The notes below the pieces were generated by a model. That model ran no database searches. It was not told the DNA's origin and saw only the letters and a list, made by a program, of their open reading frames with translations. A stretch of 36,457 nucleotides of DNA, from the NCBI GenBank assembly GCA_017632035.1, contig JAGBSG010000103.1, positions 1-36,457 on the forward strand, read 5' to 3'. Source of the stretch: Oscillospiraceae bacterium (GTDB taxonomy: Bacteria; Bacillota; Clostridia; Oscillospirales; Oscillospiraceae). A program made the position numbers and the translations under genes. This document shows positions 12,446 to 31,339 of this stretch, one piece after another; within the stretch, counting starts at the first letter, position 1, and every line of letters begins with the position of its first letter.

Positions 12446-15400
12446 TCACTTGAAGTATTTAACCGCAGCCTCAAACATGCGGATATCGTAGTTGCCGGGT
12501 ACATTCTTATACAGGCCGGCACCGATACGCTCACTGTGGCCCATCTTACCGAAGACTCTGCCATCAGGAGAGGTAATACCCTCGATAGCGAAAATGGATC
12601 CATTGGGGTTGAAGTGAACGTCCGCAGTGGCATTGCCATCCAGATCCACATACTGAGTAGCCACCTGACCGTTTTCGATCAGCTTGCGGGCAACCTCTTC
12701 ACTGGCATAGAAGCGGCCCTCACCGTGGGAGATCGCCACATTATACACATCGCCCACATTGGTGTTAGCCAGCCAGGGAGAATTGTTGGATGCCACACGG
12801 GTACGCACGATGCGGCTTTGGTGGCGGCCGATCACATTGAAGGTCAGAGTGGGGCAATTCTCATCGGTATCGATGATCTTTCCAAAGGGTACGAGGCCCA
12901 GCTTGACCAACGCCTGGAAGCCGTTGCAGATGCCACACATCAGGCCGTCACGGTTCTCCAGAAGTCTGGTGACCTCCTCCTTGATCGCGCCGTTGCGGAA
13001 GAAGGCCGTAATGAACTTACCAGAACCGTCGGGCTCATCACCGCCGGAGAAGCCGCCGGGAATGAAGATGATCTGGCTTTCCTTGATCTTCTCTGCAAAG
13101 CTCTCAACACTGCAGGCAATGGCCTCGGCAGAGCGGTTCTTCACAACAAAGATCTCAGGTTCTGCGCCTGCATCGGCAACAGCACGAGCAGAATCATACT
13201 CACAGTTGGTGCCAGGGAATACAGGAATCAGCACCTTGGGCTTAGCCACCTTAACAGCGGGCGCCACACGGGGCTTTTCAGGCGTGCTGACAGTCTCAAT
13301 GGGTGTGACCACATCAGGAATATTACAGCTATAGACAGACTCCAGCTTGTCCTCATAGGCCTTCTGGAGCGCACACAGGCTGACTGTCTCGCCGTTCAGG
13401 CTGATAACAGCCTCTGCAACTGTCTTACCGATGACATTGCCGATCTCAGTATCTTCTGCCACTTCCAGTACGAAGCTGCCGTAGCTGTAGCCAAACAGCT
13501 CAGAAACAGAAATGTCTTCCAGCGCCGCACCGACACCGTTACCGAAGGCCATTTTCATAACAGATTCTGCAACACCACCCAGACCGGGGGTATAGGCCGC
13601 AAACACCTTGCCCTGACGCATCGCGTCAGTAACAATACTGAAGTTTTTCAGCAGGCTCTCCGTGACAGGCAGACCGTTCTGATCATAATCAGGCTTCAGC
13701 AGGCACAGCTTATGGCCGGCAGCCTTGAACTCATTGGATACGATATTGGGGATCTTGTCTGTGGTAACCGCAAAGGAAACCAAGGTAGGCGGTACATCCA
13801 GGTCCTCAAAAGTACCGGACATAGAGTCCTTACCGCCAATGGCGGCAATCTTCAGATCCATCTGGGCCTTAAACGCACCAAGCAACGCGGCTGTAGGCTG
13901 ACCCCAACGCTTGGCGTCCTTGCCAACGCGCAGGAAGTACTCCTGGAAGGTCAGATACACATCCTCAAAGCTTGCACCGGTAGCAATCAGCTTGGAAACA
14001 GATTCTACAACCGCCAGATAAGCGCCGTGATAGGGGCTCTTTTCGGTAATGAAGGGGTTGTAGCCCCAGCTCATAACGGAGCAATCATCGGTATGGCCCT
14101 TCTCCAGGCTGACCTTATGGACCATAGCCTGAATGGGTGTCTGCTGGTGGATGCCACCAAAGGGCATCAGCACAGTGCCGGCACCGATAGAGGCGTCAAA
14201 CCGCTCAGACAGGCCGCGCTTGGAGCAGGTATTCAGATCCGTGGCGATCCGGTTCATGTTCTCGGCAAAGCCGCCCTTGATCTCAGGCGCATAGGCATTG
14301 GGGGCAGCCAGTTCCACATTTACATGCTTCTCAGCACCATTAGAGTTCAGGAACTCACGGTTGATATCACAGATCGTCTGGCCGTTCCAGAACATCTTAA
14401 GACGGGCTTCCTCTGTAACAGTTGCTACAACAGTAGCCTCCAGGTTCTCAGAATCGGCAATTTCCAGGAAGCGCTCCACATTTCCTGCAGCAACCACAAT
14501 GGCCATACGCTCCTGAGACTCGGAGATGGCCAGCTCTGTGCCGTCCAGACCTTCGTACTTCTTGGGCACCTTGTTCAGGTCGATCTCCAGGCCGTCAGCC
14601 AGCTCGCCGATGGCAACAGAAACACCGCCTGCGCCAAAATCGTTACAACGTTTGATCATCACAGCTGCCTCGCCGTTGCGGAACAGACGCTGCAGCTTGC
14701 GTTCCTCAGGTGCGTTACCCTTCTGGACCTCTGCGCCGCAGCTGCCCAGGGATTCCACAGTGTGGCTCTTGGATGAGCCGGTAGCACCGCCGCAGCCGTC
14801 ACGACCGGTCTTGCCGCCCAGCAGAATGACTTTATCTCCGGCAGCCGGATAGTCAGGCTTAGAATGATCCTCGTGGACAGCGCCGATCACAGCGCCGATC
14901 TCCATGCGCTTGGCAGCATAGCCGGGATGGTACAATTCGTCGACCATTCCGGTGGCAAGACCGATCTGGTTGCCGTAAGAAGAGTAACCGGCAGCAGCTG
15001 TAGTAACGATCTTACGCTGGGGCAGCTTGCCATGGATCGTCTGATCTACAGGCTTTAGGGGATCCGCAGCACCGGTAACACGCATGGCAGCATACACATA
15101 AGCACGGCTTGCCAAGGGGTCACGAATTGCGCCGCCGATACAGGTTGCAGCGCCGCCAAAAGGCTCGATCTCAGTAGGATGGTTATGGGTCTCATTTTTG
15201 AACAGCAGCAGCCAGGGCTGCTCCTCTCCGTCTACTGTCACAGTCATACGGACCGTACAGGCGTTGATCTCTTCCGATTCATACAGCTTGTCCAGATAGC
15301 CATTCTTGCGCAGATACTTACCCGCCAATGTGCCAATGTCCATCAGGTTGATGGGCTTGGTGCGGTTCAGTGCCTTGCGGGTTGCAAGATAATCCTCATA

Positions 15401-16129
15401 GGCACTCTGCAGCAGCGCATCCTCAAACTTCACATCATCAATGGTGGTATTGAAGGTAGTATGACGGCAGTGATCGGACCAGTAGGTATCGATCATGCGG
15501 ATCTCGGTAATGGTGGGATTGCGGCTTTCTGTCTTAAAATAGGACTGGCAGAAGGTGATGTCATCCAGGTCCATAGCAAGGCCCATATCCTTGACCATCT
15601 TTGCCAAACCGTCGCTGTCCAGCTCCAGGAAGCCCTCGACCGTCGCAACAGATTCCGGAACAGTAACTTCCATCTCCAGCGTTTTGGGCATATCCAGGCT
15701 GGCCTCACGGCATTCTACAGGGTTGATCACATGACGGCGGATGGCAGCAATATCGCCTTCAGACAGCTCACCCTCCAGCACATACACCTTGGCAGTGCGC
15801 ACAAGAGGACGGTCTCCCTGAGAAAGGATCTGGATGCACTGGGCGGCAGAATCCGCTCTCTGGTCAAACTGACCAGGCAGGGGCTCAACCGCAAACACCA
15901 CAGAACCGGCAGGGACTTCATAGCTGACATCATCCACCTGAGGCTCAGAAAACACGGTATTTACAGCATAACGGAACAGCTCCTCGCTGATCTTCTCCAC
16001 ATCATAGCGGTTCAGCATCCGCACGGAAGCAAGACCCTTGATTTGCAGAAATTCCTTTACTTCCTTCAGCAGGCTGTCAGCTTCAACAGTCTGCCCCTTC
16101 TTTTTTTCTACATATACACGATAAACCAA
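12446..16129 (-). CDS. purL: Phosphoribosylformylglycinamidine synthase (one-chain PurL)
   Basis: PurL makes FGAM from FGAR, ATP and glutamine, step 4 of purine synthesis. The 1227-residue chain is the clostridial one-piece type: an N-terminal PurS-like region, duplicated ATP-binding synthetase domains (including SDHCRHTTFNT and NETHNHPTEIEPFGGAATC) and a C-terminal class I glutaminase from about residue 970. The glutaminase is intact: Cys1068 in CGICNGFQ, with His1198 and Glu1200 in MGHSER. The start is TTG 16129, eight bases after GGAGG, which itself lies in the end of purD. It is the last gene of the operon. Confidence 0.96.
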   Translation of the reverse strand: MVYRVYVEKKKGQTVEADSLLKEVKEFLQIKGLASVRMLNRYDVEKISEELFRYAVNTVFSEPQVDDVSYEVPAGSVVFAVEPLPGQFDQRADSAAQCIQILSQGDRPLVRTAKVYVLEGELSEGDIAAIRRHVINPVECREASLDMPKTLEMEVTVPESVATVEGFLELDSDGLAKMVKDMGLAMDLDDITFCQSYFKTESRNPTITEIRMIDTYWSDHCRHTTFNTTIDDVKFEDALLQSAYEDYLATRKALNRTKPINLMDIGTLAGKYLRKNGYLDKLYESEEINACTVRMTVTVDGEEQPWLLLFKNETHNHPTEIEPFGGAATCIGGAIRDPLASRAYVYAAMRVTGAADPLKPVDQTIHGKLPQRKIVTTAAAGYSSYGNQIGLATGMVDELYHPGYAAKRMEIGAVIGAVHEDHSKPDYPAAGDKVILLGGKTGRDGCGGATGSSKSHTVESLGSCGAEVQKGNAPEERKLQRLFRNGEAAVMIKRCNDFGAGGVSVAIGELADGLEIDLNKVPKKYEGLDGTELAISESQERMAIVVAAGNVERFLEIADSENLEATVVATVTEEARLKMFWNGQTICDINREFLNSNGAEKHVNVELAAPNAYAPEIKGGFAENMNRIATDLNTCSKRGLSERFDASIGAGTVLMPFGGIHQQTPIQAMVHKVSLEKGHTDDCSVMSWGYNPFITEKSPYHGAYLAVVESVSKLIATGASFEDVYLTFQEYFLRVGKDAKRWGQPTAALLGAFKAQMDLKIAAIGGKDSMSGTFEDLDVPPTLVSFAVTTDKIPNIVSNEFKAAGHKLCLLKPDYDQNGLPVTESLLKNFSIVTDAMRQGKVFAAYTPGLGGVAESVMKMAFGNGVGAALEDISVSELFGYSYGSFVLEVAEDTEIGNVIGKTVAEAVISLNGETVSLCALQKAYEDKLESVYSCNIPDVVTPIETVSTPEKPRVAPAVKVAKPKVLIPVFPGTNCEYDSARAVADAGAEPEIFVVKNRSAEAIACSVESFAEKIKESQIIFIPGGFSGGDEPDGSGKFITAFFRNGAIKEEVTRLLENRDGLMCGICNGFQALVKLGLVPFGKIIDTDENCPTLTFNVIGRHQSRIVRTRVASNNSPWLANTNVGDVYNVAISHGEGRFYASEEVARKLIENGQVATQYVDLDGNATADVHFNPNGSIFAIEGITSPDGRVFGKMGHSERIGAGLYKNVPGNYDIRMFEAAVKYFK

Positions 16130-16131
16130 TG

Positions 16132-17400
16132 TTAATTCCTCCCGGCCTGTAAGGCTTTCTTACCAATGTCGTTACGGTAATATGCATTGTCAAAATGAAT
16201 GGTCTTTACCATGGCATAAGCATCCGCAATGGCTGCTTCCAGAGAATCCGCTACAGCTGTTGCGCCCAAAACACGGCCGCCGTTGGTTACCAGAACGCCG
16301 TCCTTCACAGCAGCGCCGGCAACATACACATTCTTGCTGATCGACTCAGGGATGTCCATAGGGAAGCCCTTTTCGTAGGAACTGGGATAGCCCTTGGATG
16401 CCATGATCACACAGCAGGCGTGCTGATCCTTAAACTTTACATCCACATCCTTCAGCTTACCGGCAGTCACTGCCTGCATTACAGTCAGAAGGTCGGTTTT
16501 CAGCAACGGCAGCACCACCTGGGTCTCCGGATCGCCAAAACGGCAGTTGTACTCAATGACCTTAGGACCGTCAGGTGTCAGCATCAGACCGAAGTACAGG
16601 CAGCCCTTAAAGGTGCGGCCCTCGGCGTTCATTGCGCGAACGGTAGGCATGAAGATCTTTTCCATACACACCCACGCGATGGTATCGGTGTAGTAGGGAT
16701 TGGGTGCAACTGTACCCATACCGCCTGTATTCAGGCCGGTATCGTTGTCCCCTGCCCGCTTGTGATCCATGGAGGAAACCATGGGCACAAGGCTCTCACC
16801 GTCGGTAAACGCCAGAACACTGACTTCAGGACCGGTGAGGAACTCCTCGATCACAACATTATCGCCGCTGGCGCCAAAGACCTTGTCCGCCATCATGGAA
16901 CGCACAGCATCCTTGGCCTCATCACGGGTCTGGGCAATGATTACACCCTTACCCAAAGCAAGGCCGTCTGCCTTAATAACTGTGGGAATGGGAGCTGTCT
17001 CCAGATACGCAAGTGCCGCATCCATATCACTGAACACCTCGTATGCAGCAGTGGGAATGCCATACTTCTTCATCAGGTTTTTGGAGAACACCTTACTGCC
17101 CTCAATAATGGCCGCATTGGCCCGGGGGCCAAAGCAAGGAATCCCCTTCTCTTCCAACGCATCCACACAGCCCAGCACCAGAGGATCGTCCGGTGCGACA
17201 ACCGCATAATCGACCTGCTCCTTCATTGCAAATTCCACAATAGCCGGAATGTCCTTAGCACCAATGTTAACACAGGTCGCATCCTTTGCCATACCACCGT
17301 TTCCAGGCAGCGCAAAGATCTGCTCAACCGCAGGATTCTCTTTCAGCTTCTTGATAATAGCATGCTCGCGGCCACCGCCGCCAACCACTAAAATCTTCAT
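16132..17400 (-). CDS. purD: Phosphoribosylamine-glycine ligase
   Basis: PurD ligates glycine to phosphoribosylamine (step 2), an ATP-grasp enzyme of 422 residues, the usual length. The N-terminus MKILVVGGGGREHAI is diagnostic. The ATP-grasp core includes TVIKADGLALGKGV and the metal-binding YNCRFGDPETQ. ATG 17400 follows TAAGGAGG. It lies nine bases after the transformylase gene and almost touches purL (two bases), consistent with one transcript. Confidence 0.97.
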   Translation of the reverse strand: MKILVVGGGGREHAIIKKLKENPAVEQIFALPGNGGMAKDATCVNIGAKDIPAIVEFAMKEQVDYAVVAPDDPLVLGCVDALEEKGIPCFGPRANAAIIEGSKVFSKNLMKKYGIPTAAYEVFSDMDAALAYLETAPIPTVIKADGLALGKGVIIAQTRDEAKDAVRSMMADKVFGASGDNVVIEEFLTGPEVSVLAFTDGESLVPMVSSMDHKRAGDNDTGLNTGGMGTVAPNPYYTDTIAWVCMEKIFMPTVRAMNAEGRTFKGCLYFGLMLTPDGPKVIEYNCRFGDPETQVVLPLLKTDLLTVMQAVTAGKLKDVDVKFKDQHACCVIMASKGYPSSYEKGFPMDIPESISKNVYVAGAAVKDGVLVTNGGRVLGATAVADSLEAAIADAYAMVKTIHFDNAYYRNDIGKKALQAGRN

Positions 17401-17409
17401 AGTGCCTCC

Positions 17410-18594
17410 TTAGTGATGGAACAGGCGCATGCCGGTAAAGGCCATGGCAATGCCCCGGTTATTGCACTCTTCGATTACCAGATCGTCACGAATAGAACCG
17501 CCGGGTTCTGCGATGTACTTAACGCCGGAAGCAGCTGCGCGCTTAATATTGTCGCTGAAGGGGAAAAATGCGTCAGAGCCAAGCGCCACATTCTGACGGC
17601 TGGAAAGCCATGCCTTCTTGTCTTCTTCGGTCAGGCGCTCAGGCTGCTCGGTGAAATAATTCTGCCAGATGCCGTCAGCGCAAACGTCCTCTTCGTTGCC
17701 ATTGATATAGCCATCGATGACATTGTCACGGTTGGGACGGCCCAGGTCCTCACGGAAGGGCAGATTCAAAGTCTTGGGATGCTGACGCAGGAACCATGTA
17801 TCAGCCTTGGAGCCTGCCAGTCTGGTGCAGTGGATACGGCTCTGCTGGCCGGCACCGACACCGATTGCCTGACCGTCAACTGCGTAGCAAACGGAGTTGG
17901 ACTGGGTGTACTTCAGGGTGATCAGTGCAACGATCAGGTCGATCTTTGCATCCTGAGGAATATCCTTATTCTCGGTAACAATATTCTCCAGAAGATGCTC
18001 GCCGATCTTGAAGTTGTTGCGGCCCTGCTGGAAGGTAATGCCGAAGACCTGCTTGTTCTCTGCCTCGGCAGGTACAAAGTCAGGGTCGATGGCAACCACA
18101 TTGTAACTTCCTTTGCGCTTAGCCTTCAGAATCGCCAGAGCCTCATCGGTATAACCGGGAGCAATGACACCGTCGGAAACCTCACGGGCAATCAGAGATG
18201 CGGTCATCCCATCGCACACATCGGACAGTGCCACCCAATCTCCGAAGGAGCACATACGGTCAGTACCCCGGGCGCGGGCATAGGCGCAGGCCAGCGGATT
18301 CTCGTCCAGACCATCCACATCATCCACAAAGCAGGCCTTCTTCAGGTCATCATTCAGGGGCTTTCCCACAGCAGCGGAGGTAGGAGATACATGCTTAAAG
18401 GAGGTGGCTGCCACCATACCGGTCGCTTCCTTCAGCTCCTTGACCAGCTGCCAGGAATTCAGGGCGTCCATAAAATTGATATAGCCGGGACGGCCGTTTA
18501 GGATGGTAAAGGGCAGCTCGCTGCCGTCATGCATATACAGCTTCGCAGGCTTCTGATTTGGGTTACAGCCATACTTCAGTTCAAATTCTTTCAT
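17410..18594 (-). CDS. purH: Stand-alone AICAR transformylase (PurH C-terminal domain type)
   Basis: This enzyme transfers a formyl group from 10-formyl-THF to AICAR, giving FAICAR (step 9). The 394-residue protein corresponds to the AICAR transformylase half of PurH. It has the Lys-His pair of the active site in SFKHVSP (Lys67, His68), a CVDD-like segment FVDDVDGLDENPLACAYARA, and the GAGQQSRIHCTRLAG motif. The N-terminal IMP cyclohydrolase domain (about 200 residues in bifunctional PurH) is absent; the neighbouring gene supplies that activity. ATG 18594 follows AAGGAG. The symbol purH is used in the sense of the transformylase only. Confidence 0.93.
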   Translation of the reverse strand: MKEFELKYGCNPNQKPAKLYMHDGSELPFTILNGRPGYINFMDALNSWQLVKELKEATGMVAATSFKHVSPTSAAVGKPLNDDLKKACFVDDVDGLDENPLACAYARARGTDRMCSFGDWVALSDVCDGMTASLIAREVSDGVIAPGYTDEALAILKAKRKGSYNVVAIDPDFVPAEAENKQVFGITFQQGRNNFKIGEHLLENIVTENKDIPQDAKIDLIVALITLKYTQSNSVCYAVDGQAIGVGAGQQSRIHCTRLAGSKADTWFLRQHPKTLNLPFREDLGRPNRDNVIDGYINGNEEDVCADGIWQNYFTEQPERLTEEDKKAWLSSRQNVALGSDAFFPFSDNIKRAAASGVKYIAEPGGSIRDDLVIEECNNRGIAMAFTGMRLFHH

Positions 18595-18608
18595 ATCATT
18601 TTTCTCCT

Positions 18609-19322
18609 TTACTGATGCTTATTGAGGATGCGCTGCTCGTAGGCGCCGGTCTCAATATCGGTATAGCGCACGAACAGAGATATCTTGTTGTCAGGGTTCA
18701 GGTTTTCCCAAAGCATATTAGTGAACGCATCAATGTCGCCATCAATAGCAACGCGCTCGGGCTCACCCTGGAAGGTGGGGATCACAGGATTGCCGTCACA
18801 CACATAGGTGTGGATAAAATGGCCCAGGCCTGCGATACCGGGATACTCGTAGAAGAATCTTGCACAGGCAGAGCCCTCAGAATCAGCAGACTTCAGAATA
18901 GACATTTTGTAGCTGCCGTCACGGCTCAGCAGACCGCTGATTCTGGGGGTCCAGTTGGGGCCATCATCCTCAAACATTCTGGTACGCAGGGCAGCCTCCC
19001 AGCTTTCGCCCTTGGCCAGATACTCCCAGACGGTGTCAGTCTGGTCGCCGTTGGTCACGATCAGGCCACAGCCGGCTTCTCTGACAGGATGGTAGATAAT
19101 GAGGTGCGGATCCTTCATCAGGCTGGGATCATGTGCCTCAGTACGAATGCCGTCAGGCTCCTGCACAAACACACGGTTACGGCTGTTGACGCTGCGGCCC
19201 ATGATAAAATAAGCAGCAACAGCCTTCTTTCCGTCAGGGCTGACACCGAGCACGATGCCACGGCCCGGATAGGTATTGGTAGAAAGCTTCTCATCCAGAG
19301 AACCGATTTCATAAACATTCAT
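18609..19322 (-). CDS. purO: IMP cyclohydrolase, archaeal PurO-like type
   Basis: The 237-residue protein closes FAICAR to IMP, the last step. It matches the IMP cyclohydrolase family first known from archaeal PurO, not the PurH domain: TYPGRGIVLGVSPDGKKAVA near the N-terminus, YFIMGRSVNSRNR (about 38-50), VTNGDQTDTV (about 89-98) and TPRISGLL. It sits directly upstream of the stand-alone AICAR transformylase, exactly where the missing half of PurH is needed. ATG 19322 follows GAAAGGAAAG. Similar split pairs are known in clostridial genomes; activity is inferred from family and context. Confidence 0.88.
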   Translation of the reverse strand: MNVYEIGSLDEKLSTNTYPGRGIVLGVSPDGKKAVAAYFIMGRSVNSRNRVFVQEPDGIRTEAHDPSLMKDPHLIIYHPVREAGCGLIVTNGDQTDTVWEYLAKGESWEAALRTRMFEDDGPNWTPRISGLLSRDGSYKMSILKSADSEGSACARFFYEYPGIAGLGHFIHTYVCDGNPVIPTFQGEPERVAIDGDIDAFTNMLWENLNPDNKISLFVRYTDIETGAYEQRILNKHQ

Positions 19323-19341: not shown

Positions 19342-19944
19342 TCAGCTCATCAGCTGTTTACTCACAATTTCCACCGCTTCAGGCAATATCTTCCACTCCG
19401 CCTGCTCCATAACACGGCGCTGCAGGATCTCCGGTGTGTCACCGTCCTGAATCTCAACTGCTTTTTGGAAGATGATCTTTCCGCCATCGGGAATCTCATT
19501 CACAAAATGTACCGTTGCACCAGTTACCTTCACACCGTAAGCAAGAGCCTCCTCATGGACGCGCAGTCCATAATAGCCCGCCCCGCAAAAAGAAGGTATC
19601 AGAGACGGATGTACATTCAAAATTCGCTCCGGATATCTGGAGGTAAAGTCCTCGCTCAGGATCGACATAAAGCCTGCCAACACGATCAGGTCAATATTGC
19701 TATTTTCCAATGCCTGCACAACAGCTTCCTCAAAGGCCCGCTGTGACCCGCAATGCTTCCTGGTGATCACTACAGAAGCGATCCCGGCATTGGCAGCTCT
19801 GGTCAGCGCATAGGCATCAGGATTATTGGATATGACCAGTTCAATTCGGCCACTGTTGATAATACCGTTGTTCTGGGCATCGATCAACGCCTGCAGATTC
19901 GTACCACCGCCGGATACCAGCACGGCAATTCTGGCTATTTTCAT
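19342..19944 (-). CDS. purN: Phosphoribosylglycinamide formyltransferase
   Basis: PurN formylates GAR to FGAR with 10-formyl-THF (step 3). The 200-residue length is typical. Visible are the N-terminal VLVSGGGTNLQALID phosphate-binding loop, LAGFMSILS, the catalytic NVHPSLIPSF stretch with its His, and the Asp in VNEIPDGG. ATG 19944 follows CGGAGG. It lies between purM and the IMP cyclohydrolase gene, separated from purM by 70 bases that contain a stable hairpin. Confidence 0.96.
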   Translation of the reverse strand: MKIARIAVLVSGGGTNLQALIDAQNNGIINSGRIELVISNNPDAYALTRAANAGIASVVITRKHCGSQRAFEEAVVQALENSNIDLIVLAGFMSILSEDFTSRYPERILNVHPSLIPSFCGAGYYGLRVHEEALAYGVKVTGATVHFVNEIPDGGKIIFQKAVEIQDGDTPEILQRRVMEQAEWKILPEAVEIVSKQLMS

Positions 19945-20014: not shown

Positions 20015-21061
20015 TTATTCAATGATGATCTTATCCTCGGAAGCAATGATCTCACCGATAACATAACAGTCCTCACCATTGGCTTTGAGGATGTCCATTG
20101 CCTTTTCAACCTGGTCAGCGGGCACTACGATGCTCATACCAACACCCATGTTATAGGTGTTGAACATGTCACGCTCAGGAATATTGCCAACCTTGGCTAT
20201 CAGATCAAAGATAGGCAGAACCTTCACTGCGCTTCTGGATATCTTCGCACCCAAGCCATCAGGAATGGATCTGGGAATGTTTTCGTAGAAACCGCCACCG
20301 GTGATATGGGAAATACCCTTTACATCCACCTGCTCCAGCAGAGCCAGTACAGGTTTCACATAGATACGGGTGGGGGTCAGCAGGGTCTCAGCAATAGTCT
20401 TGCCGCCCAATTCCTCCCTCGCAACATACAGTTCCGGATTGTTATTGTCAATATCAAAGACTCTGCGGCACAGGCTGAAACCATTGGAATGGATACCGGT
20501 GGAAGGCAGTGCGATCACAACATCTCCAGCCTTCATTCTGGTGTTATCAATGATCTTCTTTTTATCCACAATGCCAACAGCGAAGCCTGCCAGATCATAA
20601 TCCTCAACAGGCATCATGCCGGGATGCTCAGCTGTTTCGCCGCCGATCAGAGCAGCACCGGACTGCACACAGCCCTCTGCAACGCCACCGACAATGGCTG
20701 CGATCTTCTCGGGGATATTCTTGCCGCATGCAATATAATCCAGGAAGAACAGTGGCTTTGCGCCAACACAGATAATATCGTTAACGCACATTGCAACCGC
20801 ATCGACACCAATGGTATCATGCTTGTCCATCAGGATGGCCAGCTTCACCTTGGTGCCGCAGCCGTCGGTACCGGAAACCAGCACAGGTTCCTCCATACCG
20901 GCAACAGGCAGGCTGAAGCAACCGCCGAAGCCGCCTACATCATCCAGACAGCCTTCATTCTTGGTACGGGCAACATGCTTCTTCATCAGTTCCACCGCGC
21001 GATAGCCTGCAGTGATGTCCACGCCTGCAGCGGCGTAGCTTGCGGAATAACTCTTTTCCAT
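20015..21061 (-). CDS. purM: Phosphoribosylformylglycinamidine cyclo-ligase
   Basis: PurM converts FGAM to AIR (step 5). The 348-residue protein has the family landmarks [57 protein letters not shown] and [15 protein letters not shown] 21061 is preferred to in-frame starts further upstream because GAGAGGAG sits eight bases before it and homologues start at MEKSYS. It lies 14 bases after purF. Confidence 0.97.
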
Positions 21062-21075
21062 GTTACATACTCCTC

Positions 21076-22500
21076 TCATTCTTTGCCTGTCCAGCAATAG
21101 GTACACAGCTTGCACTTATCGATACCAATGGAATTGATCACACCATCCAGTGTCTGGAAGCCAAGGGAAGCAAACTTGAATTTCTCGCAGATATTCTTAC
21201 GCATGGCCTTTCCACGCTCGGTATTGCCGTCAGCGTACTCATCAATATGCTTCAGGCCCTCCTCCCCTTCCAGCTCCACAATGACCCGACGGGAGATCAG
21301 ATCCATATCGCTGGTGGAACGGGAGAAATTCAGATATTTGCAGCCATACATGATGGGCGGGCAGGCAGAACGCATATGCACGGATTTTGCACCGTTCTCA
21401 TACAGAAACTCTACGGTCTCTCTGAGCTGCGTGCCGCGGACAATGGAATCGTCCACAAACAGCAGGTTTTTGCCGGTGATCAGCTCGTGGACAGGGATCT
21501 GCTTCATTTTCGCGATCTTATTCCGATCTGCCTGCTTTGCGGGTGTAAAGCTTCTGGCCCAAGTGGGCGTATACTTGATAAAAGCTCTTGCAAAAGGCTT
21601 TCCGGTGCGATTGGCATAGCCGATAGCATGAGGCGTTCCGGAATCGGGCACACCGCCCACATAGTCGATCTCCATGGATCTGCCCTGGGCCATGTCACGC
21701 TCAGCAATTGCCGCGCCATTGCGGTAGCGCATAGCCTCCACATTCACACCCTCATAGGTAGAGGTTGGATAGCCGTAATAGCTCCACAGAAAGGCACAGA
21801 CGCGCATTTCCTCACCGGGTGCTGCCAGCTGGGTCATACTCTCAGAGGTAAGCTCCACGATCTCGCCGGGGCCCAGTTCCTTTACCTTCTCATAGCCGAG
21901 CTTGGTGAAAGCGAATTCCTCAAAAGAAACACAGTAGCCATCCTCGTTCCTGCCGATCTGCACGGGAATTCTACCCAGCCGGTCTCTGGCGGCGATAAGC
22001 TTGCCGTCATCGGTCAGCAGCAGAATATTGGCAGTTCCCTCAATCACGCTCTGGGCATACTGGATACCCTCAACAAAACTGTCCTTCTGGTTGATCAGGG
22101 CAGCTGCCAACTCTGTGGAGTTGACCTTGCCGCCGGTCATAGCATCAAAATAGACACCGTTATGCGCCAGACATTCCTCAATTAAAGCTTTGTAGTTGTT
22201 GATAATACCCACCGTGGTGATGGCATAAGTGCCCAGCTTGGAGCGGATCAGCATAGGCTGCGGATCGGAATCGCTGATGCAACCGATCACAGAGGTGCCC
22301 TTCATCTCGTCGAAAATGTGCTCAAATTTGGTTCTGAACGGTGAATTTTCAATATTGTGGATCCTTCTTTGCAGTCCGATCTCCTTATCGTAGGCTGCCA
22401 TACCACCACGGCGCGTGCCCAGGTGGGAATGGTAGTCAACGCCAAAGAACACATCCACCATACAGTCCTGCTTGGATGCTATTCCAAAAAATCCTCCCAT
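21076..22500 (-). CDS. purF: PurF-type amidophosphoribosyltransferase lacking the glutaminase cysteine
   Basis: PurF normally forms phosphoribosylamine from PRPP and glutamine (step 1). This 474-residue protein aligns along the whole family, with the PRPP loop [14 protein letters not shown] (346-359) intact and probable iron-sulfur ligands Cys235, Cys387, Cys466 and Cys469 (CTYCWTGKE). However, it starts MGGFFGIAS instead of M-C-G-I/V: the catalytic Cys2 is Gly. HRGQEG is replaced by TRRGGM (29-34), and the oxyanion Asn-Gly by Val97-Gly98. ATG 22500 is sure (AAGGAG nine bases upstream, no in-frame alternative restoring Cys). I recall other Clostridia and Bacteroidetes proteins beginning MGGFFG, so it is a subfamily, not a sequencing error. 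It probably uses ammonia or a partner glutaminase. Confidence 0.9.
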
Positions 22501-22536: not shown

Positions 22537-23223
22537 TCAGGCAAAGAACAGCTTGTTCAGGGTCATGGGATCGATATACTGACCGTCCTTGTAAACACGC
22601 ATATTACCGGAAGCGATCTCGTCAATGAGCATGACATTGCCGTTGGCATCGTAGCCGAACTCGAACTTAATGTCATACATATCCAGACCCTTTTCCTTCA
22701 GATCATCAGCCACGATCTTGGTGATGGCCTGGGTCATAGCCTTCAAGTCATCATACTGCTGAGCAGTCATAACGCCCAGATCCACCAGGCCGTCCTTGGT
22801 GACCAGAGGATCGCCCTTGGCATCGTTCTTGAAGGTAGTCTCTACATAGGCGGGCAGGTCCTGACCCTCGGTGCAGTAGTCGGAGTAGCGGCGGTAGAAG
22901 GAACCCACAGCCTTATAACGGCAAATGACCTCCAGGCCCTTACCGAACACCTTGCCGGGCAGAACTTCCATAGTGGTATTTGCCAGATCAGCACTGACAT
23001 AGTGAGTCAGAATGCCGGCAGCATTGATCTTTTCAAAGAAATAAATGGACATGCGCAGATTTACATCGCCGACGCCCTCGATGGTCAGACCAACGGAGTT
23101 CTCACCGGGATCAAACACACCGTCCTTGCCGGTGCAGTCGTCCTTGAACTTCAGCAGATAGTTACCGTTTTCCAGAGCGAAAACATCCTTAGTTTTACCG
23201 GTATAAACAAGCTTCTTTTCCAT
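22537..23223 (-). CDS. purC: Phosphoribosylaminoimidazole-succinocarboxamide synthase
   Basis: PurC joins aspartate to CAIR giving SAICAR (step 7). The 228-residue length is typical of the small bacterial form. It begins [15 protein letters not shown], the common PurC start, and has [25 protein letters not shown] and [13 protein letters not shown] near the C-terminus. ATG 23223 is selected over an in-frame ATG at 23241 because that one contains the ribosome binding site (GAAGGAGA) itself. It follows purE by 42 bases. Confidence 0.96.
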
Positions 23224-23265
23224 GTTGATGATCTCCTTCATATTGTGATGGTATATAACCAGGGT

Positions 23266-23754
23266 TTACAGACGGTCCATAACGCCAGCATCCTTAGCAA
23301 GAACTGCCGCCGCGTCAGAAGCGCGCTTGGCATCCAGCTTTGCGGCCAGCTCAGGATCTGCTACAGCCAGGATCTGAATGGCCAGCAGGGCCGCATTGGC
23401 ACCGCCGTTTATGGCAACGGTAGCTACAGGAATGCCCGTGGGCATCTGTACGGTTGCCAGCAGCGCGTCCATGCCATCCAGCACAGGGCCCTTGCAGGGA
23501 ATACCAATTACCGGAAGAGTCGTATTGGCTGCCACAGCACCGGCCAAATGAGCCGCCATACCGGCAGCGGCAATGATCACGCCGAAGCCGTTGGCTCTGG
23601 CATTTACTGAAAAATCTCTGGCTTCCACAGGAGTTCTGTGGGCAGAATAAATGTGCACCTCATAAGGAACATCAAAGGCCTTCAGGGTATCCACACACTT
23701 TTGGATGATCGGCAGATCGCTGTCGCTGCCCATAACAATGCCAACTTTTTTCAT
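23266..23754 (-). CDS. purE: 5-(carboxyamino)imidazole ribonucleotide mutase / AIR carboxylase PurE
   Basis: PurE makes CAIR (step 6). The 162-residue protein has GSDSDLP (9-15), SAHRTP (37-42), [12 protein letters not shown] and the [13 protein letters not shown] stretch. The usual Trp after GSDSD in many PurK-dependent enzymes is Leu here, and no purK lies in the operon. A class II enzyme that uses CO2 directly is therefore possible, but the sequence does not settle this. ATG 23754 follows AAGGAGAAC; it is the first gene after the riboswitch. Confidence 0.95.
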
Positions 23755-23767
23755 GTTCGTTCTCCTT

Positions 23768-23812
23768 AAAAACAAAAAAGGGCGCACTCAGCCTATGCAG
23801 CTAAATGCGCCC
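23768..23812 (-). terminator. Riboswitch expression platform: intrinsic terminator
   Basis: GGGCGCA (23812-23806) pairs with TGCGCCC (23786-23780) on the minus strand, followed by TTTTTTGTTT. The 5' arm is shared with the end of the conserved CTGGGC box of the ZTP aptamer, so ligand binding should prevent the terminator. Confidence 0.88.
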
Positions 23813-24047: not shown

Positions 24048-25136
24048 TTAGTTCTTTTTCTTTTTTGCCTCGCAGTAGATGCAGCGATAAATACCGTTTT
24101 CAGGATTGACACACCTGAACACATGGGGCAGCTCCTGCTCGCAGGAGGAGATACATCTTGGGTTATCACAGAACAATTCATCTACCGATGTATTCTCTTC
24201 CACAGGCATCTGGACACCTTCCTGGGCCTCCTTAAGGAGCTTCAGGATCAACGCCATACGCATATACTTACCGTTCAGTGCCTGCCGGAAATAGGCCGCT
24301 CTGGGATCGTCATCTACCTTTACGCTAATCTCATTGACTCTGGGCAGCGGATGAAGGACTCGCATGGTGGGCTTGGCAGTCTGAAGCTTTTCTGCAGTCA
24401 GAATATAGCTATCCTTCAGCCGTTCATATTCATCAAAGCTGTCAAAGCGCTCACGCTGAATGCGGGTCATATAGAGCACATCCAGCTCCGGCATTGCTTC
24501 TTCCAGAGAGGTAGTCTCTACATATTCCATGCCATTCTTATCCAGAATCTCGTACTTGACATAGTTGGGAAGCTTGAGTTCCTCCGGAGAGATCAAAACA
24601 ACCTTGATATTGGAATAGCGGCTCATCGCAGAAATCAAAGAATGAACTGTACGGCCATATTTCAGGTCACCGCAGCAGCCGATCACAAGATTGTCCAGCC
24701 GGCCAATCTCCCGATAGATGGTCAGCAGGTCCGCCAGGGTCTGGGTAGGATGACAGTGCCCGCCGTCGCCTGCGTTGATCACAGGGATAGATGCCGCCTT
24801 GGCTGCCACATAGGGCGCGCCCTCCTTGGGGTGACGGATTGCCATAATATCCGCATAGCAGCTGATCATCTTTGCCGTATCTGCCATGCTTTCGCCCTTG
24901 GCAGCAGAAGATGAGCTAGCCTCGGAAAAGCCAAGAACATTGCCGCCCAGCTCCATCATGGCCGCTTCAAAACTAAGTCGTGTACGGGTAGAAGGCTCAA
25001 AAAACAATGTAGCCAATTTCTTTCCTTTACAGGCTTCCGCATATCTTCCGGGGTTTTCTACGATGTCGCAAGCAGTGTGCAGAAGATCGTACAGTTCCTC
25101 TACGGAAAAATCCACAATATCGATCAGACTTCTCAT
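24048..25136 (-). CDS. pyrB: Aspartate carbamoyltransferase with C-terminal PyrI-like zinc module
   Basis: PyrB joins carbamoyl phosphate and aspartate (step 2 of UMP synthesis). Residues 1-305 form the catalytic chain: phosphate-binding STRTR (49-53) after [14 protein letters not shown] in the middle and HPLPR near 286. A further 55 residues hold FCDNPRC, a spacer, and YRCIYCEAK: Cys323-x4-Cys328 ... Cys352-x2-Cys355, the zinc site of the regulatory chain PyrI, with [10 protein letters not shown] between. The nucleotide-binding allosteric domain of PyrI is absent. The module could rigidify or pair catalytic trimers. ATG 25136 overlaps the pyrE stop (ATGA). Confidence 0.92.
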
Positions 25137-28165: not shown

Positions 28166-31100
28166 TTACGCATCGATAGTAGAGATGGTCAGGGTGGTTT
28201 CCTCCAGTACATCCAGCAGGACGCGGACAGTATCCAGCGCCGTGAAGATGGTCACATTGTTTTCCGTAGCAAACTGGCGGATCTGGTGGCCGTCGCTTTC
28301 AGGGCCGTCAGTGCCAATATCCTTGGTGTTGATCACATAGGCGATGTGGCCCTGGCGCAGTGCCTCAGGAATCTCCTCGCTGCCGTCGCTGATCTTGCCC
28401 AGCACATGGGTGCGGATTCCGTTGCTCTTCAGGAACATAGCCGTACCGATCGTTGCCTCAATATTGAAGCCAAGGTTGTAGAACCGGCGGATCAGGGGCA
28501 GGGCCTCATCCTTGTCCTTATCCGCAATGGTGACAAAGACAGTGCCGTAGTTCTGCAAACGCATACCGGAGGCCTGCAAAGCCTTGTACAGGGCACGGTT
28601 CAGCTTGTCATCATAGCCGATGGCCTCACCGGTGGACTTCATTTCAGGAGACAGGTAGGCATCCAGACCACGCAGCTTATTGAAGGAGAACACGGGTGCC
28701 TTGACATAGAAGCGGTCCTTCTCATCGGGATAGATGTCGAAGATACCCAGCTCCTTCAGGCTCTTGCCCAAAATGACCTCTGTGGCGATATCTGCCAAAG
28801 AGTAACCGGTGGCCTTACTCAGGAAGGGCACGGTACGGGAGGAACGGGGGTTGACCTCGATGATATACACATCGTCCTTATCATCCACGATGAACTGAAT
28901 ATTGTAAAGACCCACGATGCCGATGCCCAGGCCCAGCTTCTTGGCATACTGCAGGATGATGCCCTTGACCTTATCGGAAATGGAGAAAGGCGGATAGACG
29001 CTCATGGAGTCACCGCTGTGAACACCGGTGCGCTCGACCAGCTCCATAATACCGGGAACGAAGACATTATGACCGTCGCAGATGGCATCCACCTCGACCT
29101 CACGGCCTTCGATATACTTATCAACCAGAACCGGCTTATCCTCGTCGATCTCAACAGCCGTACGCAGATAGGTGCGCAGCTGGCGCTCGTTGGCAACGAT
29201 CTGCATTGCCCGGCCTCCCAGAACGAAGCTGGGGCGCACCAGAACGGGATACCCGATCTCCGCCGCAGCATCCAGACCGTCCTGGATCTTGGTAACGGCA
29301 CGGCCCTTAGCACGGGGAATATCCAGTTCATTAAGCAGGTTTTCAAAGGCGTTGCGGTCCTCGGCCTTGTCAATGGCAGCACAGTCAGTACCGATGATCT
29401 TCACACCCCGATCCGTCAGAGGCTGAGCCAGGTTAATGGCTGTCTGACCACCCAGAGACGCAATAACACCCTCAGGCTTTTCAAACTCAATGATGTTCAT
29501 AACATCCTCAGGAGTCAGAGGCTCAAAGTACAGCTTGTCGGCAGTGGTGTAGTCCGTGGAGACTGTCTCAGGGTTATTGTTAATGATGATAGCCTCGTAG
29601 CCAGCCTTCTTAATGGTCATGACCGCATGGACAGTAGAGTAGTCAAATTCCACGCCCTGGCCGATACGGATAGGACCTGCGCCCAGCACCACGATCTTCT
29701 TCTTGTTGGTCAGGACAGAAGCGTTCTCACCGGTGTAGGAAGAATAGAAGTAAGGGATATAGGCACCGGTATGGCAGGTATCCACCATGCGGAACACAGG
29801 GAACAGGTTATGTTCCTTGCGGAAGTGATACACATCCAGCTCATTGCACTTCCACATCCGGGCAACATACTTATCGCTGAAGCCCATTTTCTTGGCGGCA
29901 GTCAGAGTCTCCAATTCAAAAGGATGGACCTTCAACGTCTCTTCCATGTCCACAATGCGCTTGATCGCTTCCAGGAAGAAGGGCGTGATCTGGGTGATCT
30001 CATGGAGCTTCTCTACGGTGACACCGCGGTAGACCAGCTCTGCAATGGCGAAGATATTATCATCCCGGAACTGGCTGATATATTCCAGGATCTCCTCGGT
30101 GGACATATCGTCAAACTTGTGATGATAGATATGGTTGACACCGACTTCCAGTGAGCGGATGCCCTTCAGCAGACATTCTTCCAGGGTAGAACCGATGCCC
30201 ATGACCTCACCGGTAGCCTTCATCTGGGTACCCAGCATATTGGAGGCAGAGGTGAACTTGTCAAAGGGAAATCTGGGCAGCTTGGCGATCACATAATCCA
30301 GGCTGGGCTCAAACTCAGCGGTGGTATTGGCAATTGCAATATCTTTCAATTCCATACCAACAGCGATCTTGGCAGTTACCCGGGCAATGGGATAACCACT
30401 GGCCTTGGATGCCAGTGCGGAGGAGCGGGAAACTCTGGGGTTGACCTCGATCAGGTAATACTCACTGGAGTTGGGATTCAGGGCAAACTGGACATTGCAG
30501 CCGCCCTCAATTTTCAGCTCACGGATGATCTTAATGGCAGAGTCATTGAGCATCTTCTGGTCATGATCAGAAAGAGTCATAATAGGGGCAACGACCAGAC
30601 TGTCACCGGTGTGCACACCGACAGGGTCAATGTTTTCCATGCCGCAGATGGTAATGGCATGGTCGGCAGAGTCACGCATGACCTCAAACTCGATCTCCTT
30701 ATAGCCCTTGACGCTCTTCTCAATGAGCACCTGATGCACAGGAGAAAGCTTGAATGCGTTCAGGCCGACTTCGATCAGCTCTTCTTCACTGTAGGCAAAG
30801 CCGCCACCGGTACCTCCCAGGGTAAAGGCAGGACGCAGCACCACAGGGTAACCGATCCGCTTTGCAGCTTCCTTCGCTTCCTCAATACTGTAGGTGATCT
30901 CAGAAGGGATAACAGGCTCGCCGATAGACTGGCACAACTCCTTGAACAGTTCTCTGTCCTCAGCCCTTTCAATAGACTCAGAGCTTGTACCCAGCAGTTC
31001 TACCTGACACTCCTTCAGAACACCCTTCTTCTCCAGCTGCATAGCCAGATTCAGGCCGGTCTGACCACCGATGCCGGGAACGATGGCATCCGGGCGCTCA

Positions 31101-31339
31101 TAGCGGATGATCTTGGCGATATACTCCAGAGTCAAGGGTTCCATGTAGACCTTGTCCGCAATGGTGGTATCGGTCATGATCGTGGCAGGGTTGGAATTGC
31201 AAAGGACAACCTCATAGCCCTCTTCCTTCAGTGCCAGACAGGCCTGGGTGCCTGCATAGTCAAACTCGGCAGCCTGACCGATGACGATCGGGCCGGAACC
31301 GATGATCAAAATTTTCCGAATATCTGTTCTTTTAGCCAT
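28166..31339 (-). CDS. carB: Carbamoyl phosphate synthase, large subunit
   Basis: CarB makes carbamoyl phosphate from bicarbonate, two ATP and ammonia that is normally fed by the small subunit CarA. The 1057-residue chain has the duplicated ATP-grasp halves: ILIIGSGPIVIGQAAEFDY at the start of the first, VLGAGPIRIGQGVEFDYS at the start of the second, and the ATP-grasp signatures EVNPRVSRSSALASKA and EVNPRSSRTVPFLSKA. A C-terminal MGS-like allosteric domain follows (about 930-1057). ATG 31339 follows AGGAGG. Notably carA is not next to it. Confidence 0.97.
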   Translation of the reverse strand: MAKRTDIRKILIIGSGPIVIGQAAEFDYAGTQACLALKEEGYEVVLCNSNPATIMTDTTIADKVYMEPLTLEYIAKIIRYERPDAIVPGIGGQTGLNLAMQLEKKGVLKECQVELLGTSSESIERAEDRELFKELCQSIGEPVIPSEITYSIEEAKEAAKRIGYPVVLRPAFTLGGTGGGFAYSEEELIEVGLNAFKLSPVHQVLIEKSVKGYKEIEFEVMRDSADHAITICGMENIDPVGVHTGDSLVVAPIMTLSDHDQKMLNDSAIKIIRELKIEGGCNVQFALNPNSSEYYLIEVNPRVSRSSALASKASGYPIARVTAKIAVGMELKDIAIANTTAEFEPSLDYVIAKLPRFPFDKFTSASNMLGTQMKATGEVMGIGSTLEECLLKGIRSLEVGVNHIYHHKFDDMSTEEILEYISQFRDDNIFAIAELVYRGVTVEKLHEITQITPFFLEAIKRIVDMEETLKVHPFELETLTAAKKMGFSDKYVARMWKCNELDVYHFRKEHNLFPVFRMVDTCHTGAYIPYFYSSYTGENASVLTNKKKIVVLGAGPIRIGQGVEFDYSTVHAVMTIKKAGYEAIIINNNPETVSTDYTTADKLYFEPLTPEDVMNIIEFEKPEGVIASLGGQTAINLAQPLTDRGVKIIGTDCAAIDKAEDRNAFENLLNELDIPRAKGRAVTKIQDGLDAAAEIGYPVLVRPSFVLGGRAMQIVANERQLRTYLRTAVEIDEDKPVLVDKYIEGREVEVDAICDGHNVFVPGIMELVERTGVHSGDSMSVYPPFSISDKVKGIILQYAKKLGLGIGIVGLYNIQFIVDDKDDVYIIEVNPRSSRTVPFLSKATGYSLADIATEVILGKSLKELGIFDIYPDEKDRFYVKAPVFSFNKLRGLDAYLSPEMKSTGEAIGYDDKLNRALYKALQASGMRLQNYGTVFVTIADKDKDEALPLIRRFYNLGFNIEATIGTAMFLKSNGIRTHVLGKISDGSEEIPEALRQGHIAYVINTKDIGTDGPESDGHQIRQFATENNVTIFTALDTVRVLLDVLEETTLTISTIDA

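Follow-up and report, generated by a model that had tools for sequence, protein, structure and literature searches.

The crenarchaeal protein PurF′ has been described as a PurF paralogue that lacks the N-terminal Cys and is encoded near purine genes (Brown et al., 2011; PMC3261824). According to that paper, every crenarchaeon studied there also holds a normal PurF, with purF and purF′ close together. The authors suggest an ammonia-dependent aminotransferase role for PurF′, left untested there, and cite the observation that E. coli PurF deprived of its Cys still uses ammonia. De Ingeniis et al. (2012; PMC3376133) provide evidence for ammonia as the physiological donor of the single-domain NAD synthetases. 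No report of a glutaminase-dead bacterial PurF was recognised in a literature search that covered listings and the beginnings of abstracts, with most subscription journals outside it. The locus analysed here encodes a PurF variant that is likely to be an ammonia-using PRPP aminotransferase, performing the first committed purine step and retaining a glutaminase-dead Ntn domain; both the catalysis of this step and the use of free ammonia are deduced from sequence comparison.

The window (the whole stretch of DNA analysed, 36,457 nucleotides of contig JAGBSG010000103.1 from an Oscillospiraceae bacterium) carries a purine operon on the minus strand in the order ZMP/ZTP riboswitch, purE, purC, purF-like, purM, purN, purO, purH, purD, purL. 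The riboswitch (RF01750; 23802..23894, minus strand; 55.7 bits, gathering cut-off 39) lies upstream of purE (23266..23787, minus strand; PF00731), which is followed by purC for SAICAR synthetase (22537..23241, minus strand; PF01259). Beyond the purF-like gene, PurM was assigned to its longest ORF (20015..21115, minus strand; AIRS and AIRS_C), whose true start is probably located past the point where the purF-like gene ends. PurN (19342..19944; PF00551), a PurO-type IMP cyclohydrolase (18609..19322; PF07826) and a PurH-type AICAR transformylase (17410..18594; PF01808) follow on the same minus strand. Domain matches identified PurD, the consumer of phosphoribosylamine (16132..17400, minus strand), and PurL (12446..16129, minus strand), whose own glutaminase domain retains its Cys as read by eye. 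The purF-like gene had been predicted to head a complete purine pathway; it is the third gene of the operon and not the first, and the window genes span the steps to IMP except purB, which is absent from the window. The archaeal-type PurO adjoins a PurH-type protein without a listed MGS domain match (17410–19322, minus strand), here in a bacterium. A pyrimidine operon lies beyond purE on the same strand and includes PyrB with a C-terminal PyrI-like metal-binding domain (24048..25136, minus strand) and CarB (28166..31339, minus strand). CarA was not recognised among the scanned window ORFs and had no match in the host genome, which is 87.5% complete. The 3′ part of a tmRNA gene occupies positions 1–122 of the plus strand and is cut by the window edge.

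The PurF relative is a 474-residue ORF with an ATG start (21076..22500, minus strand), in which sequence and alignment place a dismantled Ntn glutaminase domain before an intact PRPP phosphoribosyltransferase domain. The start is sound, as originally proposed, because AAAAGGAG sits 8 bases 5′ of the ATG and only 12 codons, none of them Cys, separate the ATG from the upstream in-frame stop. A misread start that had missed an N-terminal Cys was ruled out by the same 12 codons. The score against the PurF model TIGR01134 was 167.9 bits and did not reach the curated cut-off of 350. B. subtilis PurF (1ao0) aligned over most of the length of the protein (E = 7e-41; profile E = 5e-58). Matches among solved structures comprised eight distinct sequences, all named as PurF-type amidotransferases, and none of these eight is close to the variant clade.

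Site residues were compared in a family alignment of 110 variant rows (the G053 variant is counted twice) and 28 canonical rows; 44 members were used for the Gly2 and Cys columns. A start-motif filter removed three of 84 variant ORFs (L073, L100, L107) and two of 30 canonical ones (L020, L023). Residues are numbered as in E. coli PurF without its Met. The catalytic N-terminal Cys1 is absent from the variant, and residue 2 is Gly in 44/44 aligned members. Arg26 is replaced by Leu in 110/110 variant rows, and the glutamine loop with Arg73 and Tyr74 is deleted, so that Arg73 is missing in 110/110. The oxyanion residue Asn101 corresponds to Val97 of the window protein (Val, Ile or Thr in 110/110 variant rows) and Asp127 to Ser (Ser, Ala or Thr in 93/110). 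Arg26, Arg73, Asn101 and Asp127, which we take to have their roles in the glutamine site of PurF, are intact in 27–28 of the 28 canonical rows, with a single exception at Asp127; Cys1 and the loop with Tyr74 are likewise retained in the canonical rows. The original prediction had named the changes of Cys to Gly and of the oxyanion Asn to Val, and both are confirmed for the window protein, the loop deletion and the change at Asp127 being additional to it; its pairing of HRGQEG with TRRGGM does not, the alignment partner being H26-L-G-T-R-R of the window protein. Cys13 and Cys74 in the N-terminal domain were considered as alternative nucleophiles and rejected, with Cys found in only 28/44 and 39/44 members, respectively.

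In the phosphoribosyltransferase half, residues K326, R342, K349, D366, D367, S368, R371, G372 and T373 are conserved in 110/110 variant rows and R332 in 108/110; these ten are presumably the PRPP-binding and catalytic-loop positions of PurF. The four Fe–S cysteine columns of the variant are those of 28/28 canonical PurFs, and no other position carries Cys in every one of the 44 variant members. The PRPP loop and the four cysteines are thus kept, as first noted for the single protein. Tyr329 is replaced by Thr and Ile335 by Met or Thr in the variant. Both are assumed here to line the ammonia channel of PurF, and on that assumption their replacement would suggest a changed ammonia route.

A tree was calculated from a subset of 67 rows (38 variant and 29 canonical; unrooted, with the G053 variant entered twice). 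The two groups are parted by a fully supported branch (100/100), and in each of the 200 bootstrap trees a single change accounts for the split between variant and canonical. The family tree called for at the outset resolves the variant proteins as one fully supported clade apart from canonical PurF. Leaving the root aside, the topology agrees with the variant having arisen once, as one clade across Clostridia; genomes that carry it and lack canonical PurF are spread through 14 families. Selection was estimated from 15 chosen close relatives, with usable dS in 90/105 pairs and dS near saturation. Median ω was ∼0.08 in the glutaminase-derived domain and 0.05 in the PRTase domain. Both are thus under purifying selection, which rules out a decaying purF-like gene and indicates that the disabled domain still serves some purpose. 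The judgement that the gene is not a dead relic is upheld by this selection, by the operon with its ZTP riboswitch and by the company of PurD in 22/23 variant-only genomes.

The host metagenome-assembled genome (MAG; 1.85 Mb, 116 contigs, 87.5% complete) was searched for a second PurF with TIGR01134, a model that exceeded its cut-off in 13/14 control genomes. No other PurF was found, in keeping with the gene having been the only one in view; the sole further match was a distant AsnB-type protein with its Cys kept. The search for a second, Cys-containing purF, advised in the original prediction, was thus negative in the incomplete host MAG and positive in many variant-carrying relatives. The survey was extended to a class sample of 293 Clostridia genomes, consisting of the host plus 292 further genomes with a completeness of at least 95%, with group lists compiled by hand from the search tables. 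Canonical PurF was lacking in 60/292 of the other genomes by table reading; G183 and G218, with partial canonical matches only (E about 1e-80), were excluded from the 60. An automatic tally placed 231/293 genomes over the cut-off and 62 below it, and the table reading gives 63 with the host, G183 and G218, a difference of one. Both PurFs were present in 59/292 genomes and the canonical form alone in 171. The variant is carried by 23 of the 60 genomes without canonical PurF, from 14 families (that of G283 is in two pieces on two contigs).

PurD was found in 22/23 variant-only genomes, G241 being the lone exception, versus 0/37 genomes with neither PurF, or 1/37 if a weak match in G093 is counted (Fisher p = 4e-14 with G093 counted). 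With one vote per family the association gave p = 2e-7 (14 versus 15 families, two of them on both sides). The variant most likely makes phosphoribosylamine, because PurD uses this compound and accompanies the variant in genomes that lack canonical PurF; in those genomes it is probably the only enzyme to do so, judging from gene content. The one-contig genome G247 has purE-C-F′-M-N-B-H-D-L and no canonical PurF, G011 and G018 of the host genus repeat the order of the window, and in G021 of the same genus the variant stands at the contig edge and is followed by purM-N-O-H-D-L. Canonical PurF occupies the same purine-operon slot in G006, in which no variant was found. In G001 (99% complete) the canonical purF is split into two frames and the variant is one open frame.

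Two alternatives bear on these counts. The host species might hold a canonical PurF that its MAG has missed, with the variant as an accessory there. The host assembly consists of 116 contigs with a completeness of only 87.5%, and PurF, CarA, GlmS and PyrG can share one island, so that one gap could remove all of them. However, no canonical PurF was found in the genus members G021 (99% complete), G011 (97%) and G018 (92%) or in one-contig G247. We consider this explanation quite improbable for the host, and an assembly gap is unlikely to account for the missing canonical PurF across the 23 further genomes. Alternatively, the variant could be a non-catalytic or regulatory PurF paralogue, with phosphoribosylamine supplied by side reactions or by ribose 5-phosphate reacting spontaneously with ammonia. 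Such a paralogue would suit the 59/292 genomes in which canonical PurF stands alongside the variant, and the variant could have another role in those genomes because the canonical enzyme is also present. It would also suit the tandem copies of G035, G053 and G207, which resemble the nearby purF and purF′ of Crenarchaeota; the pair lies within the purine operon in G035, a member of the same genus, and in G053, which belongs to another family. Against it, the ten PRPP-site residues are conserved in 108–110 of 110 rows and PurD is not retained without either PurF; its occurrence in 0–1 of 37 such genomes argues against a source of phosphoribosylamine independent of both PurFs. We hold a non-catalytic or regulatory variant to be very improbable.

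As an aminotransferase, the variant would convert PRPP and NH3 to phosphoribosylamine and PPi, performing the first committed purine step from an operon position that is also open to canonical PurF. The Ntn domain would hydrolyse no glutamine and might be retained for structure, assembly or regulation. Free ammonia and ammonia from a separate glutaminase had both been put forward as the source; the former is favoured, short of proof. Amidotransferases split into subunits exist, for example CarA/CarB, and phosphoribosylamine could likewise be made by the variant with ammonia from a separate glutaminase subunit docked on the disabled domain. The strong conservation of that domain is as expected of a docking face. 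Yet the purine operon of the window holds no recognisable separate glutaminase, and among named purine, pyrimidine and amidotransferase genes none was seen in the purine operons of G011, G018, G021 and G247. In a search confined to the PF00117 glutaminase family, the host and G011 each gave one domain, in both cases HisH in the histidine operon, with the Cys kept in the host protein; G018 gave two, which are PuuD-like by reading. We therefore regard a docked glutaminase as unlikely. Free ammonia appears to be the likeliest donor, and it is preferred to a separate glutaminase because other glutaminase-bearing enzymes are also absent in variant-only members of the genus.

This absence was followed in 36 other genus members, of which 16 are variant-only and 16 canonical-holding; G001 (split canonical purF) and G008, G025 and G027 (neither PurF) were left out. 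Genus variants were identified by TIGR01134 scores of about 144–171 bits and not by the A1 model. CarA was found in 4/16 variant-only versus 13/16 canonical-holding genomes. GlmS was called from TIGR01134 matches by length and position and, among the matches listed (down to ∼41 bits), was found in 4/16 versus 14/16. Without G020, a variant-only genome with a short canonical PurF piece, the variant-only values become 4/15 for CarA (p = 0.004) and 3/15 for GlmS (p = 0.0002). CTP synthase and GuaA were looked for in 14 of the 16 variant-only and 8 of the 16 canonical-holding genomes; CTP synthase was present in 3/14 versus 8/8 and full-length GuaA in 5/14 versus 7/8. In 25 genomes searched for CTP synthase (PF06418) it was not found in 12, namely the host (G000), G011 (97% complete), G018 (92%) and nine others. 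Among the matches listed, GlmS went undetected in 12/16 variant-only members. Only a 334–399-residue GuaA frame, starting near the synthetase domain, was seen in eight variant-only genomes, G011, G012, G016, G017, G018, G028, G029 and G033; the enrichment of short GuaA by itself is not significant (p = 0.19). GMP synthetases without a glutaminase domain were observed at L223–L231 and L233–L235. That of L230 scores 428 bits to guaA_Cterm, and no neighbouring glutaminase gene was found in the roughly 3 kb short-GuaA loci L224, L228, L230, L234 and L235. Neither a full-length nor a short GuaA was detected in the host genome, which retains AsnB, HisH and PurL, each with its Cys.

Of the 12 variant-only genus members that lack CarA, at least 11 have CarB-sized ATP-grasp frames, so the loss of CarA in the genus is not plainly a loss of the pathway. 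The genes concerned are partly linked. Among ten loci with canonical PurF compared within the genus (L146–L155), PurF lies with CarA–CarB in 7/10. The fullest islands (L147 and L152) hold AsnB, PurC, PurA, PurB, GuaA, GlmS, PyrG, PurF, CarA and CarB; that of L148 has the same set minus GlmS and lies beside an ammonium transporter. L153 and L154 have PurC–PurF alone, and in L155 (G006) the canonical PurF is inside the purine operon. Because of this partial linkage the genus losses are not independent, and a joint absence can represent one event or one assembly gap. Across the class, CarA was absent (E worse than 1e-60, from a table read by eye) in 12/22 variant-only PurD-positive genomes versus 38/171 canonical-only genomes (p = 0.003), and in 0/59 with both PurFs. 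This class-wide absence may reflect pathway loss, CarB having been followed in the genus only. Proteins of GuaA and PyrG size, complete with glutaminase domains, are retained in one-contig G247. The pattern of absent amidotransferases is weaker outside the genus, and a wider shift is perhaps limited to part of one genus.

These observations lead to a broader and tentative proposal, for which we place the chances somewhat short of even. A group of gut Clostridia may depend on free ammonia for most steps that bring nitrogen into nucleotides and amino sugars, or at least for many of them, having set aside or lost the partly linked amidotransferases (PurF, CarA, GlmS, full-length GuaA and CTP synthase) for glutaminase-free versions that include an ammonia-only PurF. 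The genus itself seems to possess a glutamine-dependent enzyme set, often in one island and once beside an ammonium transporter, and a second, ammonia-tolerant set comprising the variant PurF, CarB without CarA and GMP synthetase without a glutaminase domain. Some species hold both sets and others mainly the ammonia-tolerant one. Under the broader proposal, members without a detected CTP synthase might depend on an unknown ammonia-dependent enzyme or on cytidine salvage. If the variant does use ammonia, such bacteria should need it for purines and resist PurF-acting glutamine analogues, and they would illustrate that several amidotransferases are dispensable in an ammonia-rich habitat. Naming by homology alone gives PurF and would mask the changed nitrogen donor. 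A test of the archaeal proposal of 2011 is confused by the normal PurF in the same genome; the proposal of an ammonia aminotransferase is directly testable here because these Clostridia have the variant by itself, in purine operons that are ordinary in other respects.

Canonical PurF (TIGR01134; B. subtilis 1ao0/1gph and E. coli 1ecb) resembles the variant in its alignment over most of the length, its PRPP-site residues, the B. subtilis-type Fe–S cysteines and the operon slot shared in G006. The variant differs in lacking Cys1, Arg26, Arg73, Asn101, Asp127 and the glutamine loop, in its score of 167.9 against the cut-off of 350 and in forming a separate clade. Like crenarchaeal PurF′, as described in PMC3261824, the window variant is a PurF homologue without the N-terminal Cys that is encoded near purine genes. 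Unlike PurF′ as described there, it occurs without a detected canonical PurF in the host MAG and in 23/292 other genomes. The variant is also comparable to the single-domain NAD synthetase, an ammonia-dependent member of an otherwise glutamine-using family (PMC3376133). According to the same paper, that enzyme has no glutaminase domain and the ammonia-dependent form is most likely ancestral, whereas the variant PurF keeps its disabled domain.
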